From Accumulibacter sp. (GTDB lineage Bacteria; Pseudomonadota; Gammaproteobacteria; Burkholderiales; Rhodocyclaceae): DNA of 64,000 nt. The stretch is from NCBI RefSeq assembly GCF_023806625.1, contig NZ_JAMTDX010000072.1, positions 7,687 through 71,686 on the forward strand, read 5' to 3'. This document shows, in pieces, positions 6,833 to 48,319 of the stretch (position 1 is the stretch's first letter; each line of letters starts with the position of its first letter). The notes beneath the pieces are model-generated. The model searched no databases. It was not told the DNA's origin and saw only the letters and a list, made by a program, of their open reading frames with translations. Position numbers and translations under genes: made by a program.

Positions 6833-8347
<1,515 letters not shown>

Positions 8348-42674: not shown

Positions 42675-43628
42675 ATGGAAGCATCCGCGCCCGAACCGCC
42701 AGGCGTCCTCGCAAGCTTCAAGGGCTTTCTGCTCTGGGTCGGCGGCTCGCTGGCCGGGATCACCGCGCTGCTCTACGCGACCGGCTATCTGGTGACCCGT
42801 GCGCACCTGTCGATGCTCGGCCTTCACGGGCTCGTGGAGGTGAGCAGCGACCAGTTCCTCCAGGAAGGCGCCAAGCTGATCCTCGCCGCCGGCTACACGG
42901 TCCTCAGGACGACCCTCGCGCTGGGCGCTCTCGCCGGCGTCGTCGTCTTCGTTGCGATGCTCCTCGGACGGCTGCTCGACCGCGTCGCCGCCGGTCGGCG
43001 TTGCGTCGACTGCGCGACGCGAGTCGCCAGTTCGAAGGGGCTGCGCCATCTCCTCTTCGCCGGGCTCTTTGTCGCGCTCGCGCTGCACGCCGATCACTAT
43101 CTGCGCGTGGCCGAGCAGCCGCTCGCGGCGATCGATCTGCTCTACGTCGATCCGGCGAGCCTCAGCGTCGAGCCGGGAACGGGCAACCGCGTCGCCGTGT
43201 GGATCCTCGGCGGCGACAGCCAGCAAATGGATCGCGATTTCGACGATCTGCTGCTCGGCGCGATCCTCGCCGGCCTGCTGGCGTTCGGCGCGTGGCGGGT
43301 CGTGGCGCCCTGGCCGCTGCGCCCGTGGCTCGTCGCCCCCTTCGTCGCCGCGCTCGGGATCTCCCTGGTCACGCTGCCGATGGCCTACGGCGTCCTGCAG
43401 CGGCCGGCTCACTACCCAATCGTCTCGCTGACCCTCGACCACGACGAACCGGCGGCGCGCGGATCGCTGTTCCTGCTCTCGCGCACGCCGGACGCTTTCG
43501 TCCTGTGGAACCCCGAGGCGCGTCGCGTGCTCTGGCTGCCCGCAGGAGCCGTCCGACGCGCCGAGATCGGCGCGGTGAAGAACCTTTTCGCGGCAAGCCG
43601 CTTACCCCATACGGAGAACGCCAGATGA
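42675..43628 (+). CDS. Five-helix inner membrane protein of unknown function
   Basis: This 317-residue protein has hydrophobic segments near residues 18-40, 70-100, 124-140, 190-210 and 216-240. The loop at 141-189 follows helix 3, and a soluble C-terminal tail of about 75 residues contains LWNPEARRVLWLPAGAVRRAEIG. A CVDC pair lies at 110-113. I recognise no family. Its stop overlaps the start of the cysteine-repeat lipoprotein gene (ATGA), so the two are made together and may form one envelope system. Confidence 0.75.
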   Translation: MEASAPEPPGVLASFKGFLLWVGGSLAGITALLYATGYLVTRAHLSMLGLHGLVEVSSDQFLQEGAKLILAAGYTVLRTTLALGALAGVVVFVAMLLGRLLDRVAAGRRCVDCATRVASSKGLRHLLFAGLFVALALHADHYLRVAEQPLAAIDLLYVDPASLSVEPGTGNRVAVWILGGDSQQMDRDFDDLLLGAILAGLLAFGAWRVVAPWPLRPWLVAPFVAALGISLVTLPMAYGVLQRPAHYPIVSLTLDHDEPAARGSLFLLSRTPDAFVLWNPEARRVLWLPAGAVRRAEIGAVKNLFAASRLPHTENAR

Positions 43629-45241
43629 ACCCCTTCGCCAGAGTGCTGAGCCTCGTCGCGCTGCTCGCCGTCGCCGCCTGCACGCCCTTGCCGCACTTCC
43701 AGAGCGGCCAGGAACACATCGGGACGGTTGCCACGGCCGGTCCGAACGTCTTGCTCAACGGCGCGCGACCGCGCGACGGCGACCGCGTCTTCGACGGCGA
43801 TACGCTGACCACCGGTGCCGGCACGAGCGTTCGCGTCTACCTGCGCGAGGGCGGCTACGTCCAGCTCGACGAGAACACCGACCCCGAGTTCCGGATCTTC
43901 CGCGAGGGCGGCTGCATCCTGATCCGGATGCTCACCGGCCAGATTTTCGTCGACGCCAGGCGGGTGTGCATCTCCGACCCGAACATCGAGGTCGCACTGA
44001 ACAGCCGGGTCAATGTCCAGGTCGCCGACCAGCAGACGACGCTGACGGTGATCGAGGGCGAGGTGACGATGAGCCGGCCGGTTCGCCGCAACCTCGACGC
44101 GCTGCACCGGTACTCGGTGCTCCGCGGAGCGATCGCTAGCGCTGTCCGCCTGTCGCCGGCCCAGGCGGAGAGGACGGCGAGCTGGACGACCCGTTACTTC
44201 GGCACCAGCGACCAGGCCTACGGGATCTCGGGCTGGTGCTGCACGGCGAGTGGGCTGTCGCGCGCGACCGAAGACGTCTGCGAACAGGCCGAGGGCCGTT
44301 TTTCGCTCGACGAGCGGACCGCCCGCCGCAGCTGCGCTACGCCACCGTCCGAGCCGGTCTGGTGCTGTGCGCGCGGCAGGGTCGCCCAGCTCACGGCCGA
44401 ACGCTGCGCGGCAGCCCGCGGCCAGGCCTTCGACGAACGCGACGCCGCGCTCGACGCCTGCAGCCGGCGGGGAACGCCCTCGGCGGTGCTCGGCTGGTGC
44501 TGCCGCGACGGAGGACTGGCCCGGCTGACCGAAGAGATCTGCCGCCAGGCCGGGGGCAGCTTCACGATCGACGAACGGATCGCTCGCCGCAGCTGCGTTC
44601 CACCCGCACCCGACCTCGTCTGGTGCTGCGCGCGCGGCAAGGTCGCCCAGACGACGCCCGAGGGCTGCGCCGCGCGCCAGGGCCTGCTCTTCGATGACCC
44701 CGACGCCGCCTGGGCTGCGTGCGCCCAGCGGCCCCCGCCGACGCCATCCGGGGAAGTGATCGGCTGGTGCTGCGCGGGCGGCAGACTCGCGCGAACGACA
44801 GCCGAAGACTGTCGCCAGACCCGGGGCCGCTTTTCGCTCGACGAGAGCAGCGCGAGGCGCAGTTGCGTCGCCCATCCGCTCGAACCCGGCTGGTGCTGCA
44901 TCAGAGGCCAGGTCTCGAGCTTGCCCGCCGAGCGCTGTCGCGCCATGGGCGGGCGGGACTTCGCCGACGAAACGAGCGCGCACAACGCCTGCCCGGCGCC
45001 CGCGCCTTCCGGCCAGTCCGGCACTGGCAGTAGCGCGCCGATATATCAGGTGCTGCCGCTGATCCTGCCGCCGCCGGCGAAGAGCGGCGTAACAGGCGCC
45101 GACCCGGCGCCGACCGTCGCGCCCGGGTGGTGCTGCATCGGCGAATCGCTCTCGCCGGAAACCGCCGCCCGCTGCCGGGCCGCCGGGGGACGCTACTACG
45201 ACTCCGAACGGGAGGCACGCCGTGCGTGCACACTGCGCTGA
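43625..45241 (+). CDS. FecR-like lipoprotein with seven WCC-x12-C-x17-C repeats
   Basis: This 538-residue protein starts MNPFARVLSLVALLAVAAC, a lipoprotein signal with Cys19. Residues about 32-150 resemble a FecR-type domain (VNGARPRDGDRVFDGDTLTTGAGTSVRVYL-like, with VQLDENTDPEFRI and VIEGEVTMSRP). Seven repeats follow, with Trp at 204, 246, 291, 333, 381, 423 and 502. Each has exactly WCC, 12 residues, Cys, 17 residues, Cys. The first six alternate between two versions. A Pro/Gly/Ser linker (about 457-500) precedes the last. The four Cys per repeat suggest two disulfides or a metal site in the periplasm. I do not recognise the repeat family. Confidence 0.85.
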   Translation: MNPFARVLSLVALLAVAACTPLPHFQSGQEHIGTVATAGPNVLLNGARPRDGDRVFDGDTLTTGAGTSVRVYLREGGYVQLDENTDPEFRIFREGGCILIRMLTGQIFVDARRVCISDPNIEVALNSRVNVQVADQQTTLTVIEGEVTMSRPVRRNLDALHRYSVLRGAIASAVRLSPAQAERTASWTTRYFGTSDQAYGISGWCCTASGLSRATEDVCEQAEGRFSLDERTARRSCATPPSEPVWCCARGRVAQLTAERCAAARGQAFDERDAALDACSRRGTPSAVLGWCCRDGGLARLTEEICRQAGGSFTIDERIARRSCVPPAPDLVWCCARGKVAQTTPEGCAARQGLLFDDPDAAWAACAQRPPPTPSGEVIGWCCAGGRLARTTAEDCRQTRGRFSLDESSARRSCVAHPLEPGWCCIRGQVSSLPAERCRAMGGRDFADETSAHNACPAPAPSGQSGTGSSAPIYQVLPLILPPPAKSGVTGADPAPTVAPGWCCIGESLSPETAARCRAAGGRYYDSEREARRACTLR

Positions 45242-45403: not shown

Positions 45404-45480
45404 GCGCCCGTAGCTCAGCTGGATAGAGTACTTGGCTACGAACCAAGGGGTCGGGCGTTCGAATCGCTCCGGGCGTGCCA
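45404..45480 (+). tRNA. tRNA-Arg (anticodon ACG)
   Basis: This 77-nt cloverleaf has acceptor GCGCCCG/CGGGCGT (one terminal G-U pair) and D-arm region GCTCAGCTGGATAGAGT. The anticodon stem CTTGG/CCAAG encloses the loop CTACGAA (anticodon ACG). The T-loop is TTCGAAT, and CCA is encoded. A34 would be edited to inosine to read CGU, CGC and CGA. Confidence 0.95.
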
Positions 45481-45787: not shown

Positions 45788-47092
45788 ATGGTCGGAACTC
45801 GCGAGACATCGGCGAAATCGGTGGACAGCGCCTGGTGGCACGGCCAGGCGGCAACCACCGCGCGCTCGATGTGGACCAGTTATCGAAGCGCCTTCCGCAA
45901 CATCACTCGGCAGTATCGGCGAAGTGCCATGGGAATGGCTGCGGTCACCTTTGGCGTGGTCGCCCTGATCCTTGCCGAAGGCTTCGTCGAATGGATGTTC
46001 TGGGCGGCTCGAGAAGGGGCGATCCAGAGCGGGCTCGGCCACATTCACGTGGTGCGCGCGGGCTACCTCGAGAACGGTCAGGCCGATCCTGTGCGCTATC
46101 TGTTGCCGGACGACCGCGTCGAACGGGAAGCATTACGGAGCTTCCCGACGGTCCGCACACTCGCGCCGCGGCTGGCTTTCACCGGAATGGTCAGTCACGG
46201 CGAGGCAAGCGTGTCCTTCCTCGGCGAGGGAATGGACCCGGAAGCCGAGAAGATCGTCAGCTACGTCATGAGTCTGACCTCGGCCGGCGAGGTGCTGTCG
46301 AGCGACGATCCGACGGGGATCACTCTCGGACGCGGTCTCGCCGAGAACCTCGGCGTCGGGGTCGGTGACAAGGTCGTGCTCCTGGCAACGACGGGCTCGG
46401 GCGGGATCAACGCCGTCGAGGCCACGGTACGGGGCTTGTTCGTCTCGGCGAGCAAGGCCTACGACGACTCGGCCTTGCGCGTGCCGATGCCTCTGGCACA
46501 GCGCTTGTTGCGTCTGTCGGGCAGTCACCGCTGGATTCTCGCGCTGAACGACACGAGCCAGACGACCGGCACTCTCCTCGCCCTACGCGAAGGCTTCCGC
46601 GATCACGGCCTGCAGTTCGTGCCGTGGTACGATCTTGCCGACTACTATCGCAAGACGGTCGCCTTGCTGAGCAGGCAGGTCTCGGTCGTCGAACTGATCA
46701 TCGCCACGATCATCATCCTGAGCATCTCCAACACAATAATGATGAACGTTCTCGAACGGACGGCGGAGATCGGGACCTGCATGGCCATCGGGCGGCGCAG
46801 GAAGCAGATTCTCCTCGAGTTCGTCTGCGAAGGCATGACGATCGGAATGATCGGCGGTCTCCTCGGTCTGGTCTTCGGTGGTCTGCTGAGCCAGCTGATC
46901 TCCTATGTCGGCATCCCGATGCCGGCACCGCCCGGGATGTCGCAGGGTTACCCTGGGCAAATCCGGCTGACAGCGGCGCTGCTCGTCAGGGCGTTCCTGC
47001 TCGCCATGGGCACGGCCACCCTCGCCAGCATTTATCCGGCCTGGAAAGCCTCCCGTCTCGAGATCGTCAACGCCTTGCGCCACAACCGCTAG
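45788..47092 (+). CDS. ABC transporter permease, FtsX/MacB type (first of pair)
   Basis: This 434-residue protein has one N-terminal helix (about 49-70) and a periplasmic MacB-PCD-like domain (about 75-290). Three C-terminal helices include VVELIIATIIILSISNTIMM, and the protein ends PAWKASRLEIVNALRHNR, the classic FtsX ending. Such permeases of type VII ABC systems work with a cytoplasmic ATPase in lipoprotein or envelope transport or mechanotransmission. A second permease follows after 15 bp; no ATPase gene is nearby. Confidence 0.88.
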   Translation: MVGTRETSAKSVDSAWWHGQAATTARSMWTSYRSAFRNITRQYRRSAMGMAAVTFGVVALILAEGFVEWMFWAAREGAIQSGLGHIHVVRAGYLENGQADPVRYLLPDDRVEREALRSFPTVRTLAPRLAFTGMVSHGEASVSFLGEGMDPEAEKIVSYVMSLTSAGEVLSSDDPTGITLGRGLAENLGVGVGDKVVLLATTGSGGINAVEATVRGLFVSASKAYDDSALRVPMPLAQRLLRLSGSHRWILALNDTSQTTGTLLALREGFRDHGLQFVPWYDLADYYRKTVALLSRQVSVVELIIATIIILSISNTIMMNVLERTAEIGTCMAIGRRRKQILLEFVCEGMTIGMIGGLLGLVFGGLLSQLISYVGIPMPAPPGMSQGYPGQIRLTAALLVRAFLLAMGTATLASIYPAWKASRLEIVNALRHNR

Positions 47093-47107
47093 CGCGGAGA
47101 TTCGACC

Positions 47108-48319
47108 GTGCTCAAACTCGCCCTGCGCAACCTCTTCCGCAACCCTGGCCGGACCTTGATGACGCTGGCTTCGATTGTCTTCGGCGTCGTCAGCCTGATC
47201 CTCAGTGGCGGCTTCGTTCAGGACGTCTACGAGCAGCTCGCCGAGGCACTCATCCACTCGCAGTCGGGACACATTCAGGTATCGCGGGCTGGGTTTCATG
47301 CCCGGGGAACGCGGAACCCGGAAAACTTCCTGATCGAAGACCCGGAAGGAATCCGGCGCACGATCCGTCAGCAGCCGGGCGTCGCAGGTGTGATGGCGCG
47401 AATCAGCTTTTCGGGCCTGCTCAGCAACGGGCGAACCGACTGGCCGATCGTCGGCGAAGGGGTCGAGCCAGAGAAGGAGGCCGCGCTCGGCAGCCAACTG
47501 CGGATCACTTCGGGAGAACAGCTTGCCGCCGACCAGCCAAATCAGATTCTGGTGGGCGACGGCGTCGCGAGGACGCTGGGCCTGCACACTGGAGATCAGG
47601 TCACGGTGCTGCTGAGCACGGCCGAAGGCGCGCTGAACAGCATCGACCTGCGCGTCGTCGGGACGTTCCAGAGCTTCTCTTCGGATTTCGACGCCCGCGC
47701 GGTGAGGATTCCGCTCGTCGCCGCGCAGGAATCGCTCGGAACGCGCGGCGCCAATTCCCTGGTCGTAGCGCTGCAGCAGACCGATCAGACCAACGAAGCC
47801 CTGCGCGGTCTGCGCCAGCGAATCGACACGAGAATCTTCGAGGTCCTCGCCTGGCCGGAACTGAATCCGTTCTACGAAGGCGTCGTCGCAGTCTATGAGA
47901 GACAGTTTGGCGTCTTGCAGGTGATCATCCTGCTGCTCGTCCTGATCAGCGTGGCCAACAGCGTGAATATGAGCGCATTCGAGCGAGTTGGCGAGTTCGG
48001 CACGATGATGGCACTCGGCGACCGGGGAGGAGCGCTTTTTCGGCTGCTGGTGGTCGAGAACGTCCTGCTCGGGAGTGGCGGCGCACTGGTCGGAGTCGTC
48101 CTGGCGGTCCTGCTTGCCCTGGCCATTTCGGCAATCGGCATCCCGATGCCTCCGCCGCCGGACGCCAACGTCGGCTACACGGCGCATATCCGCATCGTCC
48201 CCAGGGTGCTGGTCGAGGCTTGCCTCGTCGGGTTCAGCGCGACCGTTGTCGCTGCGCTGCTCCCCGCCTGGCGGATCGCCAGGATTCCGGTCGCCGAGGC
48301 ACTGCGGCAGAATCAGTAA
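47108..48319 (+). CDS. ABC transporter permease, FtsX/MacB type (second of pair)
   Basis: This is 403 residues from a GTG start (MLKLALRNLFRNPGRTLMTLASIVFGVVSLILSGGF). It has the same layout as its neighbour: helix at about 17-40, periplasmic domain, and three helices near the C-terminus, ending PAWRIARIPVAEALRQNQ. The pair are probably paralogues that form a heterodimer. The ATPase partner is presumably encoded elsewhere. Confidence 0.88.
   Translation: MLKLALRNLFRNPGRTLMTLASIVFGVVSLILSGGFVQDVYEQLAEALIHSQSGHIQVSRAGFHARGTRNPENFLIEDPEGIRRTIRQQPGVAGVMARISFSGLLSNGRTDWPIVGEGVEPEKEAALGSQLRITSGEQLAADQPNQILVGDGVARTLGLHTGDQVTVLLSTAEGALNSIDLRVVGTFQSFSSDFDARAVRIPLVAAQESLGTRGANSLVVALQQTDQTNEALRGLRQRIDTRIFEVLAWPELNPFYEGVVAVYERQFGVLQVIILLLVLISVANSVNMSAFERVGEFGTMMALGDRGGALFRLLVVENVLLGSGGALVGVVLAVLLALAISAIGIPMPPPPDANVGYTAHIRIVPRVLVEACLVGFSATVVAALLPAWRIARIPVAEALRQNQ

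Follow-up and report, generated by a model that had tools for sequence, protein, structure and literature searches.

FecR domains act in periplasmic signalling, and the typical FecR anti-sigma regulator has a cytoplasmic anti-sigma part before its membrane helix and is encoded next to a sigma factor. Pairs of FecR and CHASE2 proteins are also known already and are poorly understood. In particular, the available part of PMC5192318 describes LysM-FecR proteins (COG4254) of Burkholderiales, in which FecR is called a probable sensor, as products of an operon that also encodes a CHASE2 histidine kinase and is interrupted in a biofilm-lacking strain. In the accessible portion of another report, CHASE2 adenylate cyclases of Sinorhizobium respond via the outer-membrane protein NsrA (PMC13001267). 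Here we describe a lipoprotein gene of Accumulibacter sp., a wastewater bacterium, the product of which combines a FecR domain with seven copies of an apparently undescribed cysteine-rich repeat, the WCC unit. The gene (43625-45241, plus strand; 538 amino acids and a stop codon) lies in a stretch of 64,000 nucleotides, hereafter the window (NZ_JAMTDX010000072.1, positions 7,687 to 71,686, forward strand). Judging from genes and predicted models, we see an even chance that this protein belongs to an envelope sensing module of two genes, as its periplasmic half and probably with an anchor in the outer membrane.

A first-pass annotation made from the letters of the DNA had pointed to a lipoprotein with a FecR-like domain and seven repeats, each a small folded unit of no known family, and these points hold up. 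The tryptophans that it listed (residues 204, 246, 291, 333, 381, 423 and 502) are all correct and all seven repeats fit WCC-x12-C-x17-C exactly; a looser pattern yielded no additional copy in this protein. When residues 20-538 were shuffled 20,000 times, one match to the motif occurred in two shuffles and more than one in none. Within a 35-residue unit that starts one residue before the Trp, Gly22 and Ala31 are conserved in all seven copies. The repeats account for 28 of the 31 cysteines of the protein; the others are Cys19 of the lipobox and, in the FecR part, Cys97 and Cys115. Repeats 1, 3 and 5 are mutually alike (20-22 of 35 positions identical), as are repeats 2 and 4 (22 of 35), and therefore part of the array probably arose through duplication of a block of two repeats. 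Repeats 1-4 each have their nearest relative within the same protein (63-66% identity, versus 44-50% for the best repeat from another genome); repeat 5 is matched about equally well by repeat 3 (63%) and by repeat 2 from other Accumulibacter proteins (62%), and repeats 6 and 7 reach at best 51% within the protein and 47-50% outside it.

The structural model of the protein contains the same predicted hairpin-helix-strand-helix elements in each of the seven repeats, which supports the proposed folded unit; the predicted local distance difference test score (pLDDT) is 85-91 in the 14 ten-residue blocks that fall fully within repeats, and the mean for a two-repeat model is 87.6 (32 aligned rows). 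Searched at E-values up to 10, Pfam lists FecR as the only family for the window protein and FecR plus non-significant rows for six relatives, with no match to the repeat, and NCBIfam has no match to the repeat either. Against PDB sequences, the whole protein gave three non-significant rows, whereas the repeat tail of a relative (L057) and the repeat profile gave none. The two-repeat model had no match among PDB structures at E 0.001 and none in BFVD; the second structural aligner covered just the 89 chains passed by Foldseek, so that the fold may be a known one. No description of the repeat in print was found by word searches of the literature, and none in the family libraries. The WCC unit is thus apparently an undescribed compact extracytoplasmic domain, with a confidently predicted fold, that is absent from the copies of Pfam, NCBIfam and PDB used here.

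The FecR domain of the window protein scores 25.6 bits against PF04773, with a gathering cut-off of 24 (29.7 bits by six-frame search), and its predicted fold agrees with solved FecR signalling domains. The N-terminal signal peptide closes with a lipobox cysteine (VAAC, Cys19), and by this motif the protein is a lipoprotein, from which we infer lipidation and an outer-membrane location. A loose lipobox pattern is matched by 13 of the 14 members of the family delineated below. The Sulfuriferula member differs from its close relative in Sulfuricella (L008) in that its lipobox is recognisable. A long minus-strand open reading frame (ORF) over the lipoprotein gene, for which no support was found, was set aside, given the conservation of the family and the low ratio of nonsynonymous to synonymous substitution rates (dN/dS) in the plus frame; long opposite-strand open frames are common in high-GC DNA.

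A whole-protein search found the lipoprotein in nine of 61 genomes; the window's genus, with 28 genomes in this set, accounts for seven of the nine (window included). In many genomes this search scored part of the candidates, so that absences there are not proof. A scan of contigs delineated eight loci, in five Accumulibacter metagenome-assembled genomes (MAGs), Sulfuriferula multivorans TTN, Sulfuricella sp. T08 and MAG RBC049, and additional searches recovered two genomes each from the genera g212 (where two of 10 genomes carry the lipoprotein) and g201, which belong to the same family as the window genome. The resulting set consists of 14 proteins, one from each of 14 genomes, with 49 repeats in total, and in all 14 the WCC units stand behind a FecR-type domain, the sole context in which they are seen, even if not all of these domains score above the Pfam cut-off. 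Among the Accumulibacter proteins, the window protein has seven repeats, another has five and five have four each; the g212 and g201 proteins have four, four, four and two, and those of Sulfuriferula, Sulfuricella and RBC049 have a single repeat each. Across five similar Accumulibacter proteins (L003-L007, 10 pairs), dN/dS is 0.14 in the FecR part, 0.22 in the repeats and 0.57 in the short tail; the repeats are maintained by purifying selection.

Beyond these genomes, a profile of the window repeats (A1), run on 399 genomes of the order, gave full repeats in the window genome alone; its partial matches in 11 others (E 8.8e-4 to 0.01) were dropped as chance. In a sample of equal size, a profile that includes the repeats of G050 and G052 (A3) recovered G050, G052 and G322, all missed by A1, which is therefore insensitive; the recovery of G050 and G052 is by construction, because A3 contains their repeats. 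In the order sample, A3 matched five of 399 genomes, one of them only by a marginal partial match, and in 369 genomes of the class it matched the window genome plus two marginal partial rows (G879 and G820). The marginal partial matches in G879, G820 and G198 were dropped. The spread is thus narrow and falls short of the hits across betaproteobacteria forming extracellular polymeric substances that the first-pass annotation named as support for a new family. With regard to a mobile origin, the repeat tail of L057 had no match among plasmids or phages, and of four stretches in viral contigs that matched the window-protein pattern none coded for a relative.

The exact spacing, which the first-pass annotation took as the defining grid, turns out to be a property of the window protein and not of the family: x12/x17 is found in 12 of the 49 repeats, nine of which also have the Trp. 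The family rule is [WY]CC-x12/13-C-x14-17-C, with Trp in 42 and Tyr in seven repeats at the first position, a second-to-third Cys gap of 12 (13 in six proteins, in one repeat each), a last gap of 14-17, and commonly a Gly and a Phe ahead of the second helix and an Ala within it. Outside the 49 complete repeats no further CC or Cys follows the FecR part in any of the 14 proteins, and we saw no degenerate repeat that lacked between one and three of its Cys. When the cysteines of the signal peptide and the lipid-bearing cysteine are excluded, the ten window-type proteins (window, L002-L009 and L045) have an even number of Cys, two of them in FecR, and the four g212 and g201 proteins (L057, L079, L080 and L081) an odd number, with one unpaired Cys in FecR (residue 154-164); in L079, L080, L081 and L009, a signal-peptide Cys scored as another Cys was corrected by eye. 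The even count indirectly favours disulfides in the window-type proteins; the odd count in g212 and g201 does not. We infer two disulfides per WCC unit.

The gene directly upstream shares its last four bases (ATGA) with the beginning of the lipoprotein gene. This upstream gene encodes a protein of 317 amino acids with about five hydrophobic segments (by hydropathy, with segments merged by eye), hereafter the five-transmembrane (5-TM) protein, for which there was no match in Pfam or NCBIfam; PADLOC returned no match for P0001 or for the 5-TM protein. Four aligned members share invariant FLL-x2-T-x3-F and ARRVLW-x-P motifs and many invariant positions in the C-terminal 75 residues, which may be periplasmic, as judged from loop charge. 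A profile search detected the 5-TM protein in eight of the 61 genomes, all within the nine lipoprotein carriers (the exception being RBC049, G052), and in none of the other 52, and in all eight its gene is located directly upstream of the lipoprotein gene. It is directly upstream in Sulfuriferula as well, where the match stops as the lipoprotein gene begins and is 89% identical to the Sulfuricella protein. The pair is directly adjoining, but what lies beyond it is not the same in the window, in two further Accumulibacter genomes (which are alike) and in Sulfuricella; the two genes therefore persist as a unit.

A different partner is found in the remaining loci. In all four g212 and g201 loci, the lipoprotein gene directly follows and overlaps a gene for a TIR-CHASE2 protein in which both domains score above the Pfam cut-off, and in RBC049 a TIR-CHASE2 gene is followed first by a plain FecR gene and then by the gene of the one-repeat WCC lipoprotein. 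The 5-TM protein is absent from all five of these loci. Two of the TIR partners, when scanned, matched Thoeris-like TIR models in part and under the curated NCBIfam cut-off, and were not filed as Thoeris. In three other Accumulibacter genomes (G021, G005 and G011), a FecR gene without WCC units lies just upstream of a TIR-CHASE2 gene. On contig C93 of the window genome itself (G000; L127 and L128), a CHASE2-adenylate/guanylate cyclase protein is encoded downstream of a small FecR gene; this genome has two FecR matches in total.

Coordinates of the lipoprotein, its parts and its partner in the window, and of TIR-CHASE2 genes at related loci (locus:positions)
Feature	Coordinates	Strand	Basis
Upstream partner, 317-aa membrane protein, about five hydrophobic segments	42675..43628	+	ORF, hydropathy, co-occurrence
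Lipoprotein, 538 aa: signal peptide, FecR domain, seven WCC repeats	43625..45241	+	translation, motif pattern
Lipoprotein signal peptide and lipobox, last residues VAAC, Cys19	43625..43681	+	sequence; general lipobox rule
FecR domain (Pfam PF04773), residues 59-147	43799..44065	+	Pfam
WCC repeat 1, residues 204-237	44234..44335	+	motif pattern
WCC repeat 2, residues 246-279	44360..44461	+	motif pattern
WCC repeat 3, residues 291-324	44495..44596	+	motif pattern
WCC repeat 4, residues 333-366	44621..44722	+	motif pattern
WCC repeat 5, residues 381-414	44765..44866	+	motif pattern
WCC repeat 6, residues 423-456	44891..44992	+	motif pattern
Pro/Ser/Gly-rich low-confidence linker between repeats 6 and 7, residues 463-496	45011..45112	+	pLDDT <50
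WCC repeat 7, residues 502-535	45128..45229	+	motif pattern
TIR-CHASE2 upstream of FecR-WCC lipoprotein	L110:5455-7206, L111:5978-7729, L112:2772-4547, L113:6896-8695, L117:4046-5749		Pfam
FecR without WCC, then TIR-CHASE2 (gene order reversed relative to WCC loci)	L123:3913-7210, L124:4226-7295, L126:2814-5880

The other neighbours scanned in the window encode peptidases, a GDSL lipase, a methyltransferase, a secretion ATPase, MacB/FtsX permeases and a hexapeptide protein, in addition to tRNA-Arg. The tRNA-Arg(acg) gene (45404-45480) is located shortly downstream of the lipoprotein gene and is followed by the tandem pair of MacB/FtsX-type permease genes (45788-48319).

With LysM-FecR/CHASE2 and NsrA/CHASE2 as precedents, we read the window protein as the outer half of a sensor of this kind. 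Its FecR domain would be the signalling part, and the seven WCC units would be independent beads, stapled by disulfides and joined by short linkers, that make up a ligand-catching or spacing arm, in the place of LysM in LysM-FecR proteins. The upstream membrane protein would receive the state of the lipoprotein and relay it to the cytoplasm, this partner being the 5-TM protein in the window and, in the genera g212 and g201, a TIR-CHASE2 receptor; ligand binding by the beads, direct contact between lipoprotein and partner, and the output are all conjectural. More tentatively, the WCC unit could be an undescribed, disulfide-stapled and exchangeable sensory arm of FecR lipoproteins, in a family that includes a so far unrecognised trans-envelope TIR pathway in which the lipoprotein relays a signal from outside to a TIR-CHASE2 receptor with its cytoplasmic TIR domain as the effector, and in which the 5-TM protein replaces this receptor in Accumulibacter, Sulfuricella and Sulfuriferula.

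Several observations weigh against a sensing module. The 5-TM protein has no recognised signalling domain and therefore signal transfer through it is proposed by analogy only, and the only CHASE2 gene found in the window genome, on contig C93, is cyclase-fused and does not lie by the lipoprotein gene. Given that the Accumulibacter genomes are related, the co-occurrence of the pair counts about three lineages rather than eight. Only one of the six relatives scanned (L080) passes the Pfam cut-off for FecR, and the one-repeat protein of Sulfuricella sp. T08 (L008/L116) has a signal-like start without a recognisable lipobox. A long array is not essential, as one repeat suffices in three genomes, and the conservation of the four Cys in 49 of 49 repeats is partly built in by the pattern that picked the repeats, which demands them. 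The lipoprotein could instead be a passive envelope protein, an anchor or coat in which the repeats bind peptidoglycan, polysaccharide or a surface protein and FecR is a spacer without a signalling role, an explanation that we find rather doubtful and nonetheless worth serious consideration.

The cysteines themselves bear on two further explanations. Accumulibacter lives in aerobic-anaerobic cycles, a setting in which the array might report periplasmic redox, with the CC of each bead swapping partners with the other two Cys. An adjacent CC is indeed found in every repeat, and the four g212 and g201 relatives have the extra unpaired Cys in FecR; however, the repeats contain no CXXC, and adjacent cysteines are common in plain structural disulfide domains. 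The top-ranked structural neighbour of the two-repeat model, ADAM17 residues 594-641, also points in this direction, since membrane-proximal Cys600 of ADAM17 is reported, in the accessible part of PMC8100128, to switch disulfide partners, but this match (E 0.92) spans 28 columns and is below significance. Altogether, we regard thiol-redox sensing as unlikely. Binding of zinc, copper or iron by the four Cys of each bead appears very unlikely: the density of four Cys per 34 residues and the presence of zinc fingers among the non-significant structural neighbours would fit such sites, whereas neither the adjacent CC nor the gaps (12-13 and 14-17) resemble sites of the CXXC type, no repeat column has His among its four commonest residues, the compartment is oxidising, and the even Cys count in the ten window-type proteins fits disulfides.

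Under the sensing interpretation, one kind of lipoprotein with two different membrane partners offers a handle on how signals pass across the envelope, and if the TIR link is functional, periplasmic signals could drive TIR proteins. The spread is limited, and the strengths are a clean testable module, with a WCC unit that is simple to express and test, and the unexpected link to TIR.

Compared with known systems, FecR-WCC is apparently a FecR envelope protein with an undescribed repeat and not a new kind of system. FecR/PupR regulators (PF04773; 6ovk, 4m0n) typically have a cytoplasmic anti-sigma part where the window protein has a signal peptide with a lipobox; the latter also carries the C-terminal WCC array, and no sigma factor or TonB receptor was found among the eight window neighbours scanned. 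The Sinorhizobium system, as far as the accessible text describes it, is similar in that CHASE2 receptors act through an outer-membrane component, and differs in that NsrA is a predicted beta-barrel rather than a FecR lipoprotein and that its output is cyclic AMP (cAMP), as opposed to TIR or an unassigned output here. From the BiofilmReg LysM-FecR proteins of Burkholderia, so far as the available part of their description goes, the window protein differs in having WCC units where LysM would be (Pfam, at E-values up to 10, finds no LysM in it) and a 5-TM partner without CHASE2; no CHASE2 gene is adjacent to the window lipoprotein gene, and no histidine kinase was found among the window neighbours scanned. 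In both cases, nevertheless, a periplasmic FecR domain is joined to a second small module and the gene adjoins that of a membrane sensor, and five relatives of the window gene also share the CHASE2 sensor, adjacent in all four g212 and g201 loci and one gene further off in RBC049.
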